Assembly (NCBI GenBank): GCA_025355915.1
Contig: JANXYT010000218.1
Span: forward strand, 1-28,472
Length of the DNA: 28,472 nucleotides
DNA from: Holophagaceae bacterium
Lineage (GTDB): Bacteria > Acidobacteriota > Holophagae > Holophagales > Holophagaceae
Direction of reading: 5' to 3'
Under the pieces are notes generated by a model. The model saw only the letters and a list, made by a program, of their open reading frames with translations, did not search any database and was not told the origin of the DNA. The first letter of the stretch is position 1. Every line of letters begins with the position of its first letter. This document shows positions 3,456 to 12,581 of the stretch, piece after piece. The translations under genes were made by a program, and so were the position numbers.

Positions 3456-4142
3456 TCAAATGGGTCCGTTCAGCTTGGCGAGCAGGGTTCTGGCGGCGGG
3501 TTCCGAGGAGGCAGGGTTCTGCCCCGTGATCAGAAGGCCGTCGATCACCACATGGGGGGCCCAGTCCGGACCCTTGGAGTAGCTTCCGCCGTGCTGCTTG
3601 AGCGAATCTTCCACCAGGAATGGGACGATCTGAGTCAGCCCGGCGGCCTCTTCCTCGGTGTTGGCGAACCCCGTGACCGCCTTGCCTTTCACCACGGGAG
3701 CGCCTGATGGGCTCTTGGCATGGCGCAGCACGCCCGGCGCATGGCAGACGGCGGCCACCGGCTTCCCCGCCCTGAGCATGGCTTCGATCAAGGCGATGGA
3801 GGAAGCGTCTTCGGCCAAGTCCCACAAGGGGCCATGGCCACCGGGGTAAAACACGGCGGCGAAATCACCACGGGCCACGTCAGCCAGCTTGCGCGTGCTC
3901 GCCAGAAGGGCCTGTGAAGCCGGATCGGCTTTGAAGCGTCGGGTGGAATCGGTTTGAGAATTGGGCTCGTCGCTCTTGGGGTCCAGCGGTGGCTGACCGC
4001 CCTGGGGCGAGGCCAGGGTGATCTCCACGCCCGCATCCTTGAAGACATAGAAGGGAGCGGTGAATTCTTCCAGCCAAAAGCCTGTTTTTTTGCCCGTATC
4101 ACCGAGCGCGTCGTGGGAAGTCAGAACCATCAGAATGTTCAT
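3456..4142 (-). CDS. DJ-1/PfpI-family (type 1 glutamine amidotransferase-like) protein
   Basis: A 228-residue protein of the DJ-1/PfpI superfamily, HchA-like subgroup. The nucleophilic elbow AAVCHAPG carries the conserved cysteine C133 followed by H134, the conserved acidic residue lies in GFWLEEF (about residue 25), and the loop YPGGHG is at 100-104. Family members act as glyoxalase III/deglycase-like enzymes, chaperones or hydrolases; which applies cannot be told. The frame is open further upstream to 4202, but the family N-terminus (MNILMVLTSH) starts at ATG 4142, preceded by CTCCAGGAC. It is the first gene of a two-gene minus-strand unit with the exported protein that follows without spacing. 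Confidence 0.88.
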   Translation of the reverse strand: MNILMVLTSHDALGDTGKKTGFWLEEFTAPFYVFKDAGVEITLASPQGGQPPLDPKSDEPNSQTDSTRRFKADPASQALLASTRKLADVARGDFAAVFYPGGHGPLWDLAEDASSIALIEAMLRAGKPVAAVCHAPGVLRHAKSPSGAPVVKGKAVTGFANTEEEAAGLTQIVPFLVEDSLKQHGGSYSKGPDWAPHVVIDGLLITGQNPASSEPAARTLLAKLNGPI

Positions 4143-4439
4143 GTTTTGTCCTGGAGTGTTGGGTTGGATGGGCCCGGGTTGCAGCGACGCGCCTGTGCCC
4201 ATAAGCGATGATCACGCCAATGAATAAGAGGTAATGATGTGAGTCCCATCACCCTTCCGAGGTCCCCATTCCCGAGGGCCATTAGATCAGGATGAAGGAG
4301 TGATTCCCTCAAATTGAAGAGGATCGAAAACCCGGGATAGACACCTTCACTTGCTGCTCTTGCCACGTGACGAAGGTCCATGCGCGGTGGCAAGGAGTGG
4401 CGCACGGGCCGCCCCGAGGCCGCGGGCGAAGTGCGGACC
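4143..4439. other. Intergenic region between guaD and the DJ-1-like gene
   Basis: About 300 bases between two minus-strand genes. The frames open here look like shadows: they have no family character. The region must contain the guaD transcript end and probably a promoter for the DJ-1-like gene, but I see no convincing terminator hairpin or -35/-10 pair. Confidence 0.5.
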
Positions 4440-4922
4440 CTAGTAGCGGATCTTGTCCACCTTCGCGTCCCAGGCCCGGAACACGGCGAGGGCCTCGTCT
4501 CGCATGAGTTCCTTGGCGGGAAGGCTGCGGTCCGACAGCGGCAAGGCCACTTCCCGGTATAACCAGTCATCGTCGAACTGGATGGCCGCGGCATCCGCCC
4601 GGCCATTGGCGTACCAGATGCGGTCCAGCCGGGCCCAGTAGATGGCGGACAGGCACATGGGGCAGGGCTCGCAGCTGGTGTAGATCTCGCAGCCCTTCAG
4701 GGTGAAGGTGCCCAGCCGGTCGCAGGCGTTGCGAATGGCCACGATCTCTGCGTGCGCCGTGGGATCGCAGGTGGAGGTGACGCGGTTCCAGCCCTCGCCC
4801 AGGATCTGCCCATCCTTCACCACGACGGCGCCGAAGGGCCCGCCCTCGCCTGTTTCCATGTGGATCCGGGACAGGTCGATGGCCCGACGCATGAAGTTCT
4901 GGGGATCATGGGAGTGGGTCAT
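4440..4922 (-). CDS. guaD: Guanine deaminase, cytidine-deaminase fold
   Basis: A 160-residue zinc deaminase that converts guanine to xanthine plus ammonia. The zinc site is complete: TAHAE gives H57 and the proton-shuttling E59, and SCEPCPMC gives C87 and C90. Beyond the general deaminase fold, GGPFGAVVVKDG, NRVTSTCDPTAHAEIVAIR, AIYWARLD and the C-terminal FDDDWLYREV closely follow the Bacillus subtilis GuaD type (which has FDDSFIYKEI), and the length agrees (156 there). It is transcribed divergently from the purine/nucleoside importer operon across a 300-base control region, so it most likely feeds xanthine to the hydroxylases encoded downstream. Guanine specificity is inferred from similarity; other nucleobase deaminases share the motifs. 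Confidence 0.9.
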   Translation of the reverse strand: MTHSHDPQNFMRRAIDLSRIHMETGEGGPFGAVVVKDGQILGEGWNRVTSTCDPTAHAEIVAIRNACDRLGTFTLKGCEIYTSCEPCPMCLSAIYWARLDRIWYANGRADAAAIQFDDDWLYREVALPLSDRSLPAKELMRDEALAVFRAWDAKVDKIRY

Positions 4923-5222
4923 GGGTCGATCCTGTCGAAAGAACTAGCTCCCCAATCAAGCAAATGAATCGCAACGAAGCCTATAACCGCCGGGATGCGC
5001 ATTCGATCATAATGAAAAAAATTGACTTATAGGGAAAAAAAATCATACTCGACCCCACTATCGCAGCACCGGTTTTTCCAATCCCGCCGCCCATGGATCT
5101 CCTCAGTCCAGGCCAAACACCTCAACATGACCTCTCCCTGGGCGTTTCACCAGGGCATGGCCACCCATTTGGTCCGAGTTCCGTCCATCTACCCACCCTG
5201 CTGACCAACCCGGGAACGCCCG
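4923..5222. promoter_or_regulatory. Divergent control region between guaD and the importer operon
   Basis: About 300 bases with an AT-rich core (roughly 4960-5050) that contrasts with the GC-rich genes. It holds the 8-base palindrome ATGCGCAT (4996-5003), the promoter candidate described separately, and then a GC-rich leader of about 170 bases. The leader has a CCCTGG/CCAGGG hairpin (5136-5155) but no purine riboswitch core that I can recognise. A short open frame begins at ATG 5093 and overlaps the ATPase gene; it has no family character and is probably not a gene. Confidence 0.55.
5022..5049 (+). promoter_or_regulatory. Candidate sigma-70 promoter of the importer operon
   Basis: TTGACT (5022-5027) and CATACT (5044-5049) are separated by 16 bases within an A-rich stretch. 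This is five of six and four of six matches to the consensus. A similar AT-rich TTGACT block lies before the fused hydroxylase gene at 14046. Confidence 0.45.
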
Positions 5223-6776
5223 ATGCCCACCCAACCCGCCGATACGCCCAGACTCGCCATCCGGGGAATCCGTAAAGCCTATCCAGCCGTCGTCGCCAAC
5301 GATCGCATCGACCTCACGGTCATGCCCGGGGAGATCCACGCGGTGCTGGGGGAGAACGGCGCGGGGAAGTCCACGCTCATGAAGGTGATCTACGGGGTGA
5401 TTCGCCCCGACGAGGGCGAGATCTTCTGGGAGGGCCAGCCGGTGACCGTTCCCAATCCGGCCTGGGCGCGAACCCTGGGCATCGGGATGGTGTTCCAGCA
5501 CTTCTCGCTCTTCGAGACGCTCACGGTGGTGCAGAACGTGGCCCTGTCCATTCCCGGCAAGCTGGATCTGGGTACCCTCTCCCTGCGCATCGAGGAGGTC
5601 TCCAACCGCTACGGTCTGCCCGTGGACCCCCGGCGGCTGGTCCATGCCCTGTCCGTGGGCGAGCGGCAGAGGGTGGAGATCATCCGCTGCCTGCTCCAGA
5701 ACCCCAGGCTGCTGATCCTGGACGAACCCACGTCGGTCCTGACACCCCAGGCCGTGCGCAAACTCTTCGAGACCCTGAGACAGCTGGCGGCCGAAGGGGT
5801 GAGCATCCTCTACATCAGCCACAAGCTGGATGAGATCCAGGAACTGTGTCACAAAGCCACGGTCCTGCGGGGTGGCAAGGTCACCGGCACGTGCAGCCCT
5901 TCCCAGGAGACGCCCCAGACCATGGCCCGCATGATGATCGGTGCGGATCTTCCGGCCTATAGCCACGGCGAGTCTGAAGACGGTGGCGAGGTGCGGTTGC
6001 AGATCAAGGGACTGTCCCATGCCACGGATGATCCCTTCGGCACGGACCTCAGGGACATCAACCTGGAGGTCCGGAGCGGGGAGATCGTGGGCATTGCGGG
6101 TGTCTCCGGCAACGGCCAGCAGGAACTGCTCCGGGCCATCTCCGGAGAGGAACCCATCGCGGACAAGGGCGCGGTCCAGATGTGCGGCGTCCCCGTGGGG
6201 CGCATGAACCCGGCCCGTCGCAGGGGCCTGGGCATGTGCTTTGTGCCCGAAGAGCGCCTGGGGCGGGGGGCGGTTCCGCGCCTGTCCCTCACGGAGAACA
6301 TCCTGCTCACGGCCTACCGCAAGGGCATGCTGTTCGCAGGGCTGATCCGGTTTGGCGTGGCCAAGCGGTTCGCGGAGGAATGCATCGCGCGCTTCGATGT
6401 GAAATGCGGCGGCGCCAGCTCCGAGGCCAAGTCCCTGTCCGGGGGCAACCTCCAGAAGTTCATCGTGGGTCGGGAGATCATGCAGAACCCCAAGCTGCTC
6501 GTGCTGGCCCAGCCCACCTGGGGCGTGGACGTGGGCGCCTCCTCGTTCATCCGCCAGTCGGTGCTGGATCTGCGCAACTCGGGCACGGCGATTCTCGTGA
6601 TCTCAGAGGAACTGGAGGAGCTGTTCGAGATCTGCGATCGCATCGTGGTGATCGCCAAGGGCACCCTGTCTCCCAGCAAGGTCACCTCCGATACCAACGT
6701 GGAGGAGATCGGCATGTGGATGAGCGGCCTGTGGCCAGGGGCCGGGGCACTGGGAGAGGGCACTCATGTGGCTTAG
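5223..6776 (+). CDS. ABC transporter ATP-binding protein, BMP/nucleoside uptake type
   Basis: A 517-residue protein with two tandem ATPase domains, the arrangement of sugar/nucleoside (RbsA- and YufO/NupO-like) importers. Domain 1 has Walker A GENGAGKST (43-51), signature LSVGERQ (143-149) and Walker B LLILDEPT (163-170). Domain 2 has a degenerate Walker A (SGNGQQE), signature LSGGNLQKF and a Walker B in which the catalytic acidic residue is Gln (LLVLAQPTWGVDVGA), as is usual for this family. It is first in an operon with two permeases and a BMP-family binding protein, so it powers nucleoside or purine import. Its stop TAG (6774-6776) overlaps the start of the permease gene; the last G of the stop is supplied by the end of the inserted element described separately. 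The start ATG has only a weak ribosome site. Confidence 0.92.
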   Translation: MPTQPADTPRLAIRGIRKAYPAVVANDRIDLTVMPGEIHAVLGENGAGKSTLMKVIYGVIRPDEGEIFWEGQPVTVPNPAWARTLGIGMVFQHFSLFETLTVVQNVALSIPGKLDLGTLSLRIEEVSNRYGLPVDPRRLVHALSVGERQRVEIIRCLLQNPRLLILDEPTSVLTPQAVRKLFETLRQLAAEGVSILYISHKLDEIQELCHKATVLRGGKVTGTCSPSQETPQTMARMMIGADLPAYSHGESEDGGEVRLQIKGLSHATDDPFGTDLRDINLEVRSGEIVGIAGVSGNGQQELLRAISGEEPIADKGAVQMCGVPVGRMNPARRRGLGMCFVPEERLGRGAVPRLSLTENILLTAYRKGMLFAGLIRFGVAKRFAEECIARFDVKCGGASSEAKSLSGGNLQKFIVGREIMQNPKLLVLAQPTWGVDVGASSFIRQSVLDLRNSGTAILVISEELEELFEICDRIVVIAKGTLSPSKVTSDTNVEEIGMWMSGLWPGAGALGEGTHVA

Positions 6777-8103
6777 GGCCCGTTCAAGAATAACCTTGAC
6801 GATTGCTGGAGGTCAGCCGCGTGATCCGACAAGGCGAGTGGCGAAGGGGGATGTGGTTCATCCTTCGAGCCACTCAACGCAGTCGGGCGCGCGGCTGGCC
6901 CCAGCCCTTCGGGTGTGGGCGGCGGGCTTCGCATGGCGGCGTCGGCGGCCCTCAACATGGAACCACCATGCCAGCGGGCCCCCTCCTTGCCATGCTCGCC
7001 CGGCGCTCCGCACAATCGCCAAGGGTATTCTTGAACGGACCCTTCGATTCGAGCCGCGGGCCGAACCCTCCAAGGCCATGAGCTATCTCTCACCCCTTTT
7101 GGCCGTGGGGCTGATGTTTCTGAGCGGGATGATCCTTTTCCTTCTCCTTGGCAAGAGTCCCATGGAGGGCTTCAAGGTCTTCTTCATGAACCCCGTGAAG
7201 GATGCCTACGGCGTGGCCGAGTTGTTCTTAAAGGCCACCCCCCTGATGCTTTGCGCGGTGGGCCTGTCGGTGGGGTTCAAGGCCAACGTCTGGAACATCG
7301 GGGCCGAGGGGCAACTGCTCATCGGGGCCCTGGTGGGCGGAGGCCTGGCACTCCACTTCGAAGGCAGCAACAGCCCCTTCCTCCTGCCTTCCATGATCCT
7401 CGCCGGAGCCATGGGCGGCATGGCCTGGGCCGCCATTCCGGCCTTCCTGCGGACCCGGTTCAACGCCAACGAAATCCTCACGAGCCTGATGCTGGTCTAT
7501 GTGGCCGAGCTGATGGTGTCGTGGGTGGTCCACGGTCCCTGGAAGGATCCCGACGGCTTCAATTTCCCTCAGACCAAACTGTTCAGTGCCAAGGCCACTC
7601 TGCCCATCCTGCTGGAGGGAACCCGGGTGAACGCCGCCCTGATCTTCGCTCTGGGGGCCTTGGTGGTCGGCTGGGTCTTCATGCACCGGAGCTTTCTGGG
7701 CTACCAGATGAAGGTGGCCGGCCAGGCGGAGTTCGCCGGGCGCTATGCCGGCTTCTCGGCCAAGCGCTCCGTCTGGATCGGCATGCTGGCGGGCGGCGCC
7801 ATGGCTGGCGTCGCGGGCATCTCCGAGGTGGCCGGACCCATCGGCCAGATCACGGAGCACATCAGCCCGGGCTACGGCTTTGCGGCCATGATCGTGGCCT
7901 TCGTGGGACGGCTCAACCCCATCGGCATCTTCTTCTCCAGCCTGCTCATGGCCCTCCTCTACATGGGCGGAGAACAGGCCCAGCAGTACCTCAACCTGCC
8001 CTCCTCAATTTCCAAGGTCTTCCAGGGCATGTTGTTGTTTTTCCTGCTGGGTTCCGACGTGTTCATCCATTTCCGGCCGAGGCTGGTCCGCCGCAGGAAG
8101 TAG
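6766..8103 (+). CDS. BMP-type ABC transporter permease 1, with insertion near its N-terminus
   Basis: An integral membrane permease of the nucleoside/simple-sugar (YufP/NupP, BPD_transp_2) family. The family-like part starts with SYLSPLLAVGLMFLSGMIL and includes GFKANVWNIGAEGQLLIGA and TRFNANEILTSLMLVYVAEL, both hallmarks, with about eight to ten hydrophobic segments. As read from ATG 6766 the protein is 445 residues, about 90 more than the family norm. Codons 1-3 (MWL) and the stretch from RFEPRAEPSKAM join into the normal family N-terminus if a 270-base insert (element plus target duplication) is removed. The insert is a multiple of three and has no stop, so the frame stays open. Either the protein has a 90-residue basic, proline-rich extension before its first membrane segment, or translation begins at ATG 7079, which has a poor ribosome site. 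Which product is made is unknown. Confidence 0.85.
   Translation: MWLRARSRITLTIAGGQPRDPTRRVAKGDVVHPSSHSTQSGARLAPALRVWAAGFAWRRRRPSTWNHHASGPPPCHARPALRTIAKGILERTLRFEPRAEPSKAMSYLSPLLAVGLMFLSGMILFLLLGKSPMEGFKVFFMNPVKDAYGVAELFLKATPLMLCAVGLSVGFKANVWNIGAEGQLLIGALVGGGLALHFEGSNSPFLLPSMILAGAMGGMAWAAIPAFLRTRFNANEILTSLMLVYVAELMVSWVVHGPWKDPDGFNFPQTKLFSAKATLPILLEGTRVNAALIFALGALVVGWVFMHRSFLGYQMKVAGQAEFAGRYAGFSAKRSVWIGMLAGGAMAGVAGISEVAGPIGQITEHISPGYGFAAMIVAFVGRLNPIGIFFSSLLMALLYMGGEQAQQYLNLPSSISKVFQGMLLFFLLGSDVFIHFRPRLVRRRK
6776..7042. mobile_element. MITE-like inverted-repeat element inserted in the permease gene
   Basis: The 31 bases at 6775-6805 match the reverse complement of 7013-7043 at 28 positions (shared core CCGTTCAAGAATA). 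The span between is 267 bases and has no transposase frame, so this is a non-autonomous, MITE-like element. The interior has a strong hairpin (GAGTGGC 6836-6842 with GCCACTC 6869-6875). Flanks are TTA (6773-6775) and TTC (7043-7045), or CTT/CTT if the ends are shifted by one base. Changing the right-hand TTC to TTA restores a plausible ancestor in which the ATPase stop TAG and the permease codons CTT-AGA both make sense; with CTT-CGA the ATPase frame would run on for over a kilobase. That favours a 3-base TTA target duplication, as made by some IS5-family elements, but the family is not established. Confidence 0.75.
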
Positions 8104-8112
8104 GAACCCGCC

Positions 8113-9045
8113 ATGGGACAGACCTTCATCAGCTCGATCCTCTTTGCCACCGTCGTGGCTGGGACCCCCCTGATCATCGTCGCCTTGGGGGAACTGGTCA
8201 CCGAGAAGTCGGGTGTGCTCAACCTCGGCGCCGAAGGCATCATGTCCGTGGGCGCCGTGGCGGCTTTCGCCGTGGCCCACCACACCGGCAGTCCCGCCCT
8301 GGGAGTGCTCGCGGGCATGGCGGCCGGCATGTTCATGTCCCTGCTCTTCGGCATCTCCGCCCTGACCCTCATGGCCAACCAGGTGGCCTCGGGCCTGGCC
8401 CTTTCCATCTTCGGCGTGGGGCTGTCGGCGTTCATCGGTAAGCCCTATGAGTCCGTGGCCCTCGCCAGCGTGGACCCCATCCGCATTCCACTGCTCCACC
8501 GGATCCCGGTGCTGGGACCGGCCCTCTTCGAGCAGCAGGGGCTGGTGTACTTCTCCTGGGCCCTCATCGCCGCCGTGGCCTGGTTCCTCTACCGCAGCCG
8601 GGCGGGCCTCGTGCTTCGCGCGGTGGGCGAATCGCCAGTCTCGGCTCATTCCATCGGCTATGGCGTCGTGCGCATCCGGTATCAGGCGGTGCTCTTCGGC
8701 GGGGCCATGGCGGGCATCGGCGGTGCCTTCCTCTCGTTGTTCTATACCCCCATGTGGGTTGAGGGCATGGTGGCGGGGCGGGGCTGGATCGCCCTTTCGC
8801 TGGTGGTCTTCGCCACCTGGCGTCCCATGCGGGTCCTGATCGGGGCCTACCTGTTCGGCGGCTGCATGATCACGCAGATGTTCGTCCAGGGCTCCGGCGC
8901 CAAGATCCACATCCCGTCCCAGTTCCTTTCGTCCCTTCCCTACGTGGCGACCATCGTGGTCCTGGTGCTGATCTCCCGGAACCGCAGTACGATCCGGCTC
9001 AACTCCCCGGCCTCCCTGGGCCAGCCCTTCCTGCCGGACGCCTGA
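8113..9045 (+). CDS. BMP-type ABC transporter permease 2
   Basis: A 310-residue membrane protein, the second permease of the importer (YufQ/NupQ-like). Typical family stretches are PLIIVALGELVTEKSGVLNL followed by GAEGIMSVGA near the N-terminus, and AVGESPVSAHSIGYGVVRIR in the middle, with about eight hydrophobic segments and a normal length. ATG 8113 is nine bases after the stop of permease 1, with AGGAA (8102-8106) just upstream. It pairs with permease 1 to form the inner-membrane channel for nucleosides or purines delivered by the binding protein encoded next. Confidence 0.92.
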   Translation: MGQTFISSILFATVVAGTPLIIVALGELVTEKSGVLNLGAEGIMSVGAVAAFAVAHHTGSPALGVLAGMAAGMFMSLLFGISALTLMANQVASGLALSIFGVGLSAFIGKPYESVALASVDPIRIPLLHRIPVLGPALFEQQGLVYFSWALIAAVAWFLYRSRAGLVLRAVGESPVSAHSIGYGVVRIRYQAVLFGGAMAGIGGAFLSLFYTPMWVEGMVAGRGWIALSLVVFATWRPMRVLIGAYLFGGCMITQMFVQGSGAKIHIPSQFLSSLPYVATIVVLVLISRNRSTIRLNSPASLGQPFLPDA

Positions 9046-9111
9046 ACCATCCCCACCCTCTCTCCACCCGCCCCAAGGCGGTCCCCACCCACCCCCATGG
9101 AGGAACACCGA

Positions 9112-10215
9112 ATGAACCGCAACCAACTTTCCCTCGCGACCTTGTGTGGAGCGGCGATGCTCGCTTCCACCACCCTGATGGGCGCCCCGCCCGCAGCGGC
9201 TCCCGTCAAGATCGGCTACATCTACGTGAGCCCCGTAGGGGATGCCGGCTGGACCTTCCAGCATGACCAGGGCCGCAAGCAGATGGAGGCCGCCTTCAAG
9301 GGCGCGGTCACCACGAAGTTCATCGAGAACGTCCCCGAGGGTGCCGATGCCGAGCGCATCATCCGGCAGCTGGCCCAGGACGGGAACCAGATCATCTTCA
9401 CCACCTCCTTCGGCTACATGAATCAGACCGCCAAGGTCGCCGCCGCCTTTCCCCATGTCACCTTCCTCCACGCCACGGGCTACAAGACCGGGAAGAACCT
9501 GGGCATCTACAACGCCCGGTTCTACGAGGGACGCTACCTGAATGGCGTCATCGCCGGCAAGATGACCAAGACCAACATCGCGGGCTATGTGGCCGCCTTC
9601 CCCATTCCCGAGGTGATGCAGGGCATCAATGCCTTCACCCGCGGCATGAAGAGCGTCAACCCCAAGGCCGAAGTGCGCGTCATCTGGGTGAACTCCTGGT
9701 TCGATCCAGGCAAGGAGCGGGAAGCCGCCATGACGCTCATCTCCCAGGGCGCCGACATGATCACCCACCACACGGATTCCACCGCCGTGGTGCAGGCCGC
9801 CGAGGAGAAGCACAAGGAAAAGGGCACCTGGGCCTTCTCCTACCACTCCGACATGGCCAAGTACGGGCCCACCGCCCAGCTCACCGGCACCACGCACATC
9901 TGGGGTGACTTCTACACCAAGGTCGTCAAGGAAGTGCTCGACAAGAAGTGGACGGGCACCAATGTGTGGGGCGGCTTCAAGGATGGGATGATCAAGCTCG
10001 CGCCCCTCAGCCCCTCGATTCCTGCCGATCTCAAGAAGACCATCCTCAAGATGGAAGCCGATATCACCGCCGGTAAGCTGCATCCCTTCGCCGGGCCCGT
10101 TCTGGACCAGGACGGCAAGGAGCGTGTTCCCAAGGGCAAGAACATGACCGATGCAGAATTGGGCGCCATGAACTACTACGTGCAGGGCGTGGCTTCCACC
10201 CTGCCCAAGAGCTAG
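9112..10215 (+). CDS. Periplasmic BMP-family substrate-binding protein
   Basis: A 367-residue protein of the BMP/PnrA-like family (basic membrane protein, purine-nucleoside receptor type). It starts with a Sec signal peptide (MNRNQLSLATLCGAAMLAS, then TTLMGA, probable cleavage near residues 25-30). There is no proper lipobox, so it is likely a free periplasmic protein rather than a lipoprotein. The mature domain opens with VKIGYIYVSPVGDAGWTFQH, and EGADAERIIRQLAQDGNQII and FYEGRYLNGVIAGKMTKTNI are characteristic of the family. An in-frame ATG at 9097 exists, but GGAGG (9099-9103) placed eight bases before ATG 9112 and the signal peptide decide for the latter. The likely ligand is a purine nucleoside or base; the surrounding genes support this, the sequence alone does not prove it. 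Confidence 0.92.
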   Translation: MNRNQLSLATLCGAAMLASTTLMGAPPAAAPVKIGYIYVSPVGDAGWTFQHDQGRKQMEAAFKGAVTTKFIENVPEGADAERIIRQLAQDGNQIIFTTSFGYMNQTAKVAAAFPHVTFLHATGYKTGKNLGIYNARFYEGRYLNGVIAGKMTKTNIAGYVAAFPIPEVMQGINAFTRGMKSVNPKAEVRVIWVNSWFDPGKEREAAMTLISQGADMITHHTDSTAVVQAAEEKHKEKGTWAFSYHSDMAKYGPTAQLTGTTHIWGDFYTKVVKEVLDKKWTGTNVWGGFKDGMIKLAPLSPSIPADLKKTILKMEADITAGKLHPFAGPVLDQDGKERVPKGKNMTDAELGAMNYYVQGVASTLPKS

Positions 10216-10227
10216 AGCCAAGGCCGT

Positions 10228-10265
10228 GGCAGGGGGGTGAGGCACTCCGCCTCCTCCCCCCTGCC
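10228..10265 (+). terminator. Hairpin after the binding-protein gene
   Basis: GGCAGGGGGG pairs with CCCCCCTGCC, with a further GAGGC/GCCTC pairing inside. It is followed only by ATCTTTGCC, so it may be a partial terminator or an mRNA-protecting hairpin that lowers expression of the hydroxylase genes relative to the binding protein. Confidence 0.5.
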
Positions 10266-10340
10266 ATCTTTGCCTTCAATCTTCTGCCCGCCTGGGCATG
10301 TCCCCATGGCGGAACGCATCAAACTCTCCAGGAGGCCCCA

Positions 10341-12581
10341 GTGATCGGAGCTTCTTCCAACCGGAAGGAAGGTCGTGCCAAAGTCTCCGGCACCGCCTGT
10401 TATACCGACGACAAGTTCGTACCCGGGGCCATTCACGGTGTCACGGTGCGCTCCCAGGTGCCACGGGGCATCTTGAAGGGCATCCATTTCGACGATGGGA
10501 TGCCCTGGAGTGAATTCACCATCGTCACCGCCGCCGATATCCCCGGCAAGAATTGCGTGGCGTCCGTGGTGCATGACCAGCCTTTCCTGGTGGGGATCGG
10601 TGAGGAGATCACGCACATGGAGCAGCCCGTGGTGCTGCTCGCCCACCCCGACCGTCACCTGGCCGAGAAGGCCCGGAACGCCGTCCGGCTTGAAGTGGAA
10701 GAGCTCCCAGCCATCCTGGACATCCAGGCCTCCCTGGGCCTGGAACAGGTCATTTACGGTGCGGACAACCTCCTGAAGGAGATCCGGATCCAGAAGGGCG
10801 ATCCGGAGACCGTGTGGGACCAGGCCGCCCATGTGATCGAAGGGGAATACCGCACCGGGGCCCAGGAACAGATGTACCTGGAGACCAACGCCATGGTGGC
10901 GGTGGTGGAGCAGGCCGCGGCCGAGACCCGGGTGACGGTCTGGGGCTCTCTGCAGTGTCCCTACTATGTGCACACCGCCCTCAAGCAGCTCTTCGGCCTG
11001 CCCGACGACCGGGTGCGGGTGGTGGCCATGGAAATGGGCGGCGCCTTCGGCGGCAAGGAGGACTATCCCTCGGTGAACGGCGGCCACGCGGCCCTGCTGG
11101 CCTGGAAGAGCGGCAAGCCCGTGAAGCTGGTCTACGATCGGGAAGAGGATCTGGCCTGCACGACCAAGCGGCATCCCTCCCGCACGCGGCTGAAGACAGC
11201 CTTCGACGCCGAGGGCCAGCTGTTGGCCATCGCCATCGATTTCGTCATCGACGGAGGCGCCTACGCCACCATGTCCCCGGTGGTGCTGAGCCGGGGCGCG
11301 CTCCATGCGGCGGGCGTCTACCGGTGTCCCCACGTCCAGGTGCATGCCCGCGCCGTGGCCACGAACACGCCGCCGCCGGGCGCCTTCCGCGGCTTCGGCG
11401 CGCCCCAAAGCCTCTTCGCCATGGAGCGCCACATGGATGTCTGCGCCCGGAAGCTGGGCCTGGATCCCGTGGGACTGCGCCGGAAGAACTTCCTGCGCAG
11501 GGGGGACACCATGGCCACCGGCCAGGTGATCCGGGAGGATCTGGACCTGGGTGGCCTCATGGACCGGGCCCTCGACGAGATCGGCTACCGCGACAAGCGT
11601 GCGGCTTTCGCCCTCACCAACGAGGAGGACGGCCCCATCAAGCGCGGCGTGGGTTTTTCGGTCTTCATGCACGGCTGCGGCTTCACGGGCAGCGGCGAAT
11701 CCTATCTGGCCTCGGTGGCCGGGGTCGAGGGTCTGGCCGACGGGTCTGTGTCCATCCTCGCCGCCTCCACGGAAATGGGGCAGGGGAAGAACACCGTGTT
11801 CTCCCAGATCGTCGCCGAGGCCCTGAAGCTGCCCTACGAGATGGTCGATGTCGCCGAAGTGGATACGGACCGGGTCCCCAACAGCGGCCCCACGGTCGCT
11901 TCCCGCAGCACCATGATGGTGGGCCGCATCCTGGAGGACGCGGCCATCGGCTTCAAGCAGTCCCTGGTGCAGCAGGGGTTCCTCCAGGAGCCCTACACCG
12001 CCGACAGCTTCCGGGCGGGGGTGCGCCAGGCCGTGGCAACCCTGGGCTCCGTGAAGTGCTACGGCCAGTACCACAAGCCGGCCGACATCGCCTGGGACGA
12101 CGCCACCTACCAAGGCGATGCCTACCCCACCTACTCCTGGGCCTGCTACGCCGCCGAAGTGGCGGTGGACCTGGATATCTATGAAGTGAAGGTGGAGGAA
12201 TTCGTCACGGTGCAGGAGGTGGGCCGCGTGGTGAACCCCAGGCTGGCCGGCGGCCAGATCGAAGGCGGCGTCGCCCAGGGCATCGGCTGGGGGCTGTGGG
12301 AAGAGGTCACCACCCAGCAGGGCCGCATGATCAACAACCAGATGACCAACTACATCATTCCCACCAGCGCCGACCTGCCCCGCATCAAGGTGGTCTTTCT
12401 GGAAAATGCCCACCCGGCGGGTCCCGGCGGTGCCAAGGGCATCGGCGAGCTGCCCATGGACGGACCGGCCCCAGCCTTGCTGAACGCCCTGGTGGATGCC
12501 CTGGGTCCCTTGCGTCTGGATGAGGTCCCCATGACGCCGGATAGGCTGATGGATCGCTGCGAGGAGGTGTCACATGGCTGA
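10341..12581 (+). CDS. xdhA: Xanthine dehydrogenase-type molybdenum-binding subunit
   Basis: A 746-residue molybdopterin subunit of the xanthine oxidase family. Visible landmarks are the N-terminal KVSGTACYTDD, the Mo-loop GGAFGGKED (about residue 232), AFRGFGAPQ (about 347), STEMGQG with the Mo-contacting Gln (about 475) and the catalytic glutamate in GGAKGIGELP (about 699). The start GTG 10341 has GGAGG at 10331-10335. The end overlaps the 2Fe-2S subunit gene by 8 bases and the FAD subunit follows, giving a complete A-C-B dehydrogenase in which electrons pass from Mo through two 2Fe-2S clusters to FAD. Substrate is probably xanthine or hypoxanthine, judged by context (guanine deaminase, nucleoside importer); related subunits act on other N-heterocycles, so specificity is inferred. 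Confidence 0.9.
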   Translation: MIGASSNRKEGRAKVSGTACYTDDKFVPGAIHGVTVRSQVPRGILKGIHFDDGMPWSEFTIVTAADIPGKNCVASVVHDQPFLVGIGEEITHMEQPVVLLAHPDRHLAEKARNAVRLEVEELPAILDIQASLGLEQVIYGADNLLKEIRIQKGDPETVWDQAAHVIEGEYRTGAQEQMYLETNAMVAVVEQAAAETRVTVWGSLQCPYYVHTALKQLFGLPDDRVRVVAMEMGGAFGGKEDYPSVNGGHAALLAWKSGKPVKLVYDREEDLACTTKRHPSRTRLKTAFDAEGQLLAIAIDFVIDGGAYATMSPVVLSRGALHAAGVYRCPHVQVHARAVATNTPPPGAFRGFGAPQSLFAMERHMDVCARKLGLDPVGLRRKNFLRRGDTMATGQVIREDLDLGGLMDRALDEIGYRDKRAAFALTNEEDGPIKRGVGFSVFMHGCGFTGSGESYLASVAGVEGLADGSVSILAASTEMGQGKNTVFSQIVAEALKLPYEMVDVAEVDTDRVPNSGPTVASRSTMMVGRILEDAAIGFKQSLVQQGFLQEPYTADSFRAGVRQAVATLGSVKCYGQYHKPADIAWDDATYQGDAYPTYSWACYAAEVAVDLDIYEVKVEEFVTVQEVGRVVNPRLAGGQIEGGVAQGIGWGLWEEVTTQQGRMINNQMTNYIIPTSADLPRIKVVFLENAHPAGPGGAKGIGELPMDGPAPALLNALVDALGPLRLDEVPMTPDRLMDRCEEVSHG

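Follow-up and report, generated by a model that had tools for sequence, protein, structure and literature searches.

The window, the whole stretch of 28,472 nt analysed here, carries a BMP-type ABC transporter operon in which two genes overlap. The upstream gene (5223–6776, plus strand) was taken from the ORF list and encodes an ABC transporter ATPase (Pfam ABC_tran) ending at the stop codon TAG at 6774–6776. The downstream ORF (6766–8103, plus strand) encodes an ABC permease of 445 aa, whose BPD_transp_2 domain (Pfam, residues 151–428) begins behind an insert that covers residues ~4 to 93. The overlap of ATPase stop and permease start is 11 bases long and reads ATGTGGCTTAA in relatives. Besides the ATPase, the neighbourhood encodes two permeases and a binding protein of BMP type, and after these a xanthine-dehydrogenase-like protein. 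Over positions 3456–12581, DJ-1/PfpI-like and deaminase-like proteins, the BMP-type ABC transporter and the xanthine-dehydrogenase-like protein are adjacent, perhaps for purine use.

Between the first codons of the permease and its domain lies a 267-bp element at 6776–7042, to which no strand was assigned and which was delimited by its inverted repeats, the empty sites of relatives and copies elsewhere. The sole inverted pair listed within 6600–7300 was 6775–6805 / 7013–7043, 31 nt long and 90% complementary with one flank base included on each side; within the element proper, the left (6776–6805) and right (7013–7042) terminal arms from this search were complementary at 27 of 30 positions. 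The target copy on the left is TTA (6773–6775), and the copy on the right is TTC (7043–7045), which has one mismatch to relatives. Relatives carry a single TTA, giving a net gain of 270 bp in the window. The ORF list held no transposase ORF within the 267 bp, and a conserved family core was found on the plus strand at 6807–7011 by a profile match (E 7.8e-57). The element was thus short, carried terminal inverted repeats and lacked a transposase gene, as the sequence-only reading had proposed when it described a MITE-like insertion.

To place the insertion among relatives, 100 related genomes were searched with the permease, which gave matches in 29. Junctions were inspected in the 24 genomes behind the best full-length permease matches (L038–L061), and the site was empty in 21 and filled in three, namely the window, G034 and G014. 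The 21 empty sites comprised 18 that were seen directly, two (G038 and G005) that were read from other contigs of these genomes, and G054, where the start region had diverged. With the exception of G054, the empty sites read ATGT(G/T)GCTTA(A/G), encoding M(W/L)L(K/R). The commonest empty-site sequence was ATGTGGCTTAARTTCGA, with the protein start MWLKFE, and the nearest permease orthologue, in G009 (94% identical), starts with MWLKFEPRAEPSRAMAYL. Removal of the element had been predicted to restore a family N-terminus, and the comparison agreed, with MWLKFE in relatives and MWL...RFE in the window. With 21 junctions empty and three filled, the 90 residues were gained by insertion and do not represent a native domain. 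Orthologues carrying the same 90 residues without inverted repeats, which had been named beforehand as evidence against an insertion, were not seen in a whole-permease protein search: 8000 relatives were scored, and the best 120 of them were 329–378 aa long, each too short for the extension. When residues 1–106 were compared with the protein collection, a single match was obtained among 452 candidates. This protein, P0001, has 733 aa and was 53% identical over 86%; there the element-derived stretch is the tail of another protein. The C-terminal tail in question spans residues ~602–726. A search of viral contigs found no relatives of the permease.

Further copies of the element, also anticipated from the sequence, were present in related genomes. 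A full-length copy, 94% identical, was found at another genomic place in G009, and G017 held several further copies with the window's end type, so the element occurs at several places. In the window's own genome (506 contigs, 78% complete) there was one copy of this subtype, and the next best match was 77% identical and did not have these ends. The assembly is a fragmented one of metagenome type, and repeats break contigs in relatives, as with the G017 copies at contig ends; an element wrongly joined into the operon would be one way to obtain this arrangement. We regard such an artefact as very improbable, because both flanks have the same neighbours as in the relatives inspected, no second, nearly identical copy occurs in the own genome, and changes private to this locus are present in the right target copy and in one arm.

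Both overlapping reading frames were kept, as had been claimed. The final G of the ATPase stop TAG is the first base of the element, which upheld the suggestion that the element's first G completes the codon. At this place close relatives have TAA as the stop, and the group of G012, G038 and G005 has TAG. The permease frame is open from the ATG at 6766 across the element to the stop at 8103; the claimed net insert of 270 bp free of stops in this frame was thus found. The three plus frames of the element contain 2, 2 and 0 stops, and the open one is the permease frame. An open frame is by itself unremarkable, because at least one plus frame was also open in ~31% of 5000 dinucleotide shuffles of the element.

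We propose that the 267-bp MITE was inserted at TTA within the 11-base overlap by a transposase supplied in trans, which was most likely of IS5 type. The insertion, its borders, the empty site, the kept frames and the family are seen directly in the sequences, while the enzyme for this exact end type and the protein product are inferred. As the target ends in TA and G is the element's first base, the insertion restored the upstream ATPase stop as TAG. It left the permease start and the bases before it unaltered and added 270 bp in frame; the old start still leads into the permease because the net insert of 270 bp is open in that frame. The likeliest product would have 445 residues, with a basic 90-residue insert behind the first three, and probably less of it would be made. 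The window's target copies differ by one base, which speaks against this explanation. Taken together, we consider it probable that a trans-mobilised MITE, most likely of IS5 type, landed at TTA in the overlap, that the 445-residue protein is the most likely product, and that the in-frame outcome reflects chance and survival.

The protein product was approached through predictions and start codons. Predicted openness around the start at 6766 fell from 0.31 without the element to 0.16 with it, which suggests that lower permease expression is likely. With the element, it was 0.30 around a possible internal GTG start inside the element (6853–6855, plus strand) and 0.45 around a possible internal ATG start just 3' of it (7078–7080, plus strand). 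The sequence-only reading had also raised an internal ATG; an in-frame ATG exists, but its position is 7078 and not 7079. Translation from either internal codon would give a nearly native or a partly extended protein. The ATG at 7078 is in frame and corresponds to M in most relatives inspected, both internal codons are predicted to be more open than 6766, and both have AAGG upstream. We nevertheless consider internal initiation somewhat unlikely, as the position of 7078 reads ATT in G017 and is therefore no conserved start, the AAGG lies merely two bases 5' of this ATG, and the upstream context of the old start is preserved. A structure model of the permease had a mean pLDDT of 49.3, with blocks of 27–42 in the insert, and was too poor for use.

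The insertion may instead have effectively silenced the permease and left it to become a pseudogene. A very stable fold was predicted right after the start (−222.7 kcal/mol with and −47.1 kcal/mol without the element, for sequences of different length), and the 90-residue insert is basic. However, the permease has no frameshift or stop, and its window-specific changes comprised 6 nonsynonymous and 37 synonymous codons, although these may be older than the insertion. Together with a pairwise dN/dS of 0.08–0.11 for the window, the codon comparison indicates that the permease is under purifying selection, though this selection cannot be dated relative to the insertion. Silencing appears quite unlikely, and a product of 445 residues read from the old start remains our preferred reading. 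A new N-terminus for this permease is possible.

Keeping the frame had been presented as something special about the element, and this did not hold across the family. Among 34 delimited copies, only 7 had a length divisible by three, so the frame kept here looks like luck. In 6 of the 34, such a length was combined with at least one of six frames open, and the best single frame was open in 13. With no frame open in more than 13 copies, frame keeping was rejected as a family trait, and the in-frame outcome at the permease is best read as chance followed by survival rather than as a feature that the element has evolved.

Stop codons were then counted at the junctions of the 45 copies that could be anchored among 50 delimited ones. 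In 19 of the 45, a junction coincided with the stop codon of an ORF 150 codons or longer, against a background of 2.8% per side at 6984 TNA sites of the same loci; some copies are probably one insertion in sister genomes (e.g. L011 and L012), so independence is overstated. When only sites outside genes were compared, using a crude gene caller and leaving out the 11 copies called inside genes, the counts were 11/34 copies and 76/573 sites (Fisher p 0.005). The signal is thus weaker with genic sites removed, and it does not separate preference from survival.

The other two filled sites, those of G034 and G014, provided a second case. There, the TTA used in the window is occupied by a different family member, 57% identical to the window's, whose end in G034 reads GAGGGTGTGGCCGAATGATACG. 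The ATPase stop is again formed by TA and the element's G. Read from the original permease start, the frame runs across the element up to a TGA that overlaps a new ATG (GTATGATTCGG); this ATG lies in the right end of the element, and its frame enters the permease. From the new ATG, the G034 frame reads M-IRLLPLR-LEPRPEPSRL, and it is likely that the element supplies the new permease start in both genomes. G034 and G014 were counted as one event because the changed target copies are common to both. The spread of this insertion is patchy, since the site is empty in G005 although its permease is 99% identical to that of G014. The G014 copy (L056, G014:C9) has two extra stretches compared to the G034 copy, yet its old-ATG frame is open to the same TGA. 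A repeat hit at one base need not mean a strong site preference, as the operon has few tolerant places.

The distribution of the family was followed by DNA searches. The element matched 55 of 199 related genomes with three candidates scored per genome, and a sister-copy search matched 57 of 77 same-family genomes with at most nine candidates scored per genome, so that copy numbers from both are lower bounds. Eight of the 55 genomes lay outside the family, and most of these matches were weak. When 84,980 named genomes were scanned for a core pattern containing 21 fixed bases, 21 stretches were obtained, 18 of them titled Geothrix, Holophaga or Holophagaceae, two (from one bin) Deltaproteobacteria and one Acidobacteria. 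We take the Deltaproteobacteria title of that bin to be wrong. The plasmid collection gave no match. Matches in G003, G023 and G030 were dropped, as by eye they look like a tRNA gene neighbourhood. Judged by sequence comparison, the element is a member of a large Holophagaceae family with a conserved core and very different outer ends.

The ends were compared in the same 34 delimited copies, leaving out the mis-anchored L017. At no more than 4 mismatches, the left 18 bases fell into nine classes, one of which chains 21 copies. Core and end identity correlated at 0.50, so the ends are not freely shuffled. In pairs with cores at least 75% alike, mean identity was 83% for cores and 64% for ends, and the ends were less alike than the cores in 117 of 137 such pairs. 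The contrast was clearest between the window's element and that of G009, where 11 differences fell in the outer 44 bases, in both arms, compared to 6 in the middle 223 (Fisher p 4.4e-6). One arm of a hairpin can be corrected from the other, yielding paired changes, and such correction could also alter both arms together. In G020, an 861-bp insertion sequence with a DUF4096 frame starts with GGGCCTGTTTTCAAAGT; a family member in the same genome shares its left 17/17 bases, and the right ends differ at 2/17. The transposase search covered one family, DUF4096 (PF13340); 23 of the 77 family genomes had matches, and several of these matches showed similar ends. We take both DUF4096 and TNA targets to belong to IS5 groups, and from these likenesses we infer that the ends follow whichever IS5-type transposase is at hand.

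The enzyme that moved the window's exact end type would most likely be of the same kind. The end motif was present in 6 of 77 family genomes, where by eye no transposase gene adjoined it and no autonomous partner was seen, and the single PF13340 match of the own genome (L131) has different ends. Exact TNA target duplications (TAA, TCA or TTA on both sides) were counted by eye at 8 of 50 delimited copies. At L012, L015, L029 and L177, the two flanking copies of the target are often unequal in their middle base (TAA and TTA, in either order), and a plain TNA duplication does not explain these differences. At L170, L177, L180 and L186 in G060, palindromes of ~47–50 bp contain little beyond two ends (GGGTCCGTTCAAAAATAA) and some are flanked by TNA; ends can apparently occur on their own, with no core between them. 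One genome (L116 and L138, G050:C1) has 54 DUF4096 matches, many of them equal-scoring, suggestive of a recent expansion of a single insertion sequence. At L140 (G059:C1), a family member directly adjoins an insertion sequence end, with the flank CAGCCCCTA.

The core was examined in an alignment of 15 full-length copies chosen from the loci of the related-genome search. The 15 copies share a fold, a single three-way junction whose closing stem is formed by the inverted ends. Two-sided changes were seen in 56 of 98 pairs (closing stem, 26; inner arms, 30), and 96.3% of cells pair. None of 500 shuffles reached this and neither did any slid version; the comparison with slid versions favours the fold, since it was derived from the same 15 sequences. 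The paired changes, in inner arms as well as ends, would fit a core that is a functional RNA or DNA structure, serving host or element, with the effect on the permease being incidental. As an account of the locus this is unlikely. Folding of the two strands is alike (−163.3 and −161.2 kcal/mol) and gives no indication of RNA, the covariance models of Rfam 15 gave no match in window positions 6500–7400 up to E = 1, and the hairpin correction mentioned above could give paired changes without selection. An RNA-specific reading by the strand test was dropped because both strands fold alike, and a count of G–T versus A–C cells was set aside as biased because the structure had been predicted for one strand.

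We prefer to read the locus as a MITE mobilised in trans, and a broader proposal can be built on this. A fixed three-way-junction core may have been kept across Holophagaceae, its ends repeatedly exchanged, both arms together, for successive IS5-type transposases, and an initial G joined to a TNA target would make stop/start overlaps recurrent sites. We put this forward tentatively, as possible. If true, landing on stop codons would not lengthen the upstream protein, and insertions could build new N-termini or overlapping start codons in operons. The two insertions at one base had two outcomes, an in-frame read-through and a new ATG overlapping a stop, and form a natural comparison for the accommodation of small transposons by operons and for the origin of new protein N-termini.

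The usual MITE derives from a single parent by internal deletion and has the ends of that parent. Like bacterial MITEs of IS5-type transposases, the element is short, has inverted ends and a TNA-type target and lacks a transposase, and its ends are similar in style to those of DUF4096-bearing insertion sequences of the same bacterial family. In contrast to these MITEs, which are normally recognised by ends matching one parent transposon, the middle is conserved here and the ends are variable, and a stable middle suggests that the core does something for the element. Among the matches listed in a search of literature titles and abstract starts, with subscription journals mostly outside its scope, none dealt with the Holophagaceae family described here, with bacterial MITEs that combine a fixed core and exchangeable ends, or with insertion of IS5-type elements at stop codons.

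In-frame MITE fusions are already known from Rickettsia palindromic elements, QMITE2 in EnhC and enterobacterial repeat units. In the available part of PMC10969869, Rickettsia palindromic elements are small palindromes inserted in frame in protein-coding genes and are described as encoding a conserved peptide. A small palindromic in-frame insertion is common to both systems, whereas the Holophagaceae family has no conserved frame and its lengths are mostly not divisible by three (7/34). As far as the excerpts of PMC5896051 and PMC2759123 go, element-derived protein ends were reported for the QMITE2 fusion in EnhC of Coxiella and for fusions of the enterobacterial RU (repeat unit), respectively. 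P0001 is a like case in the Holophagaceae family. From the same excerpts, those fusions are mostly C-terminal, whereas the window's element sits behind the third codon of a gene, at a place where one gene's stop overlaps the next one's start. PMC6728339 and PMC10666635 deal, by the portions available, with translational coupling between genes whose stop and start codons overlap. The overlap of ATPase stop and permease start, and the TGA overlapping an ATG in G034 and G014, resemble the arrangements considered there, with the difference that here a transposable element would build or keep the overlap.
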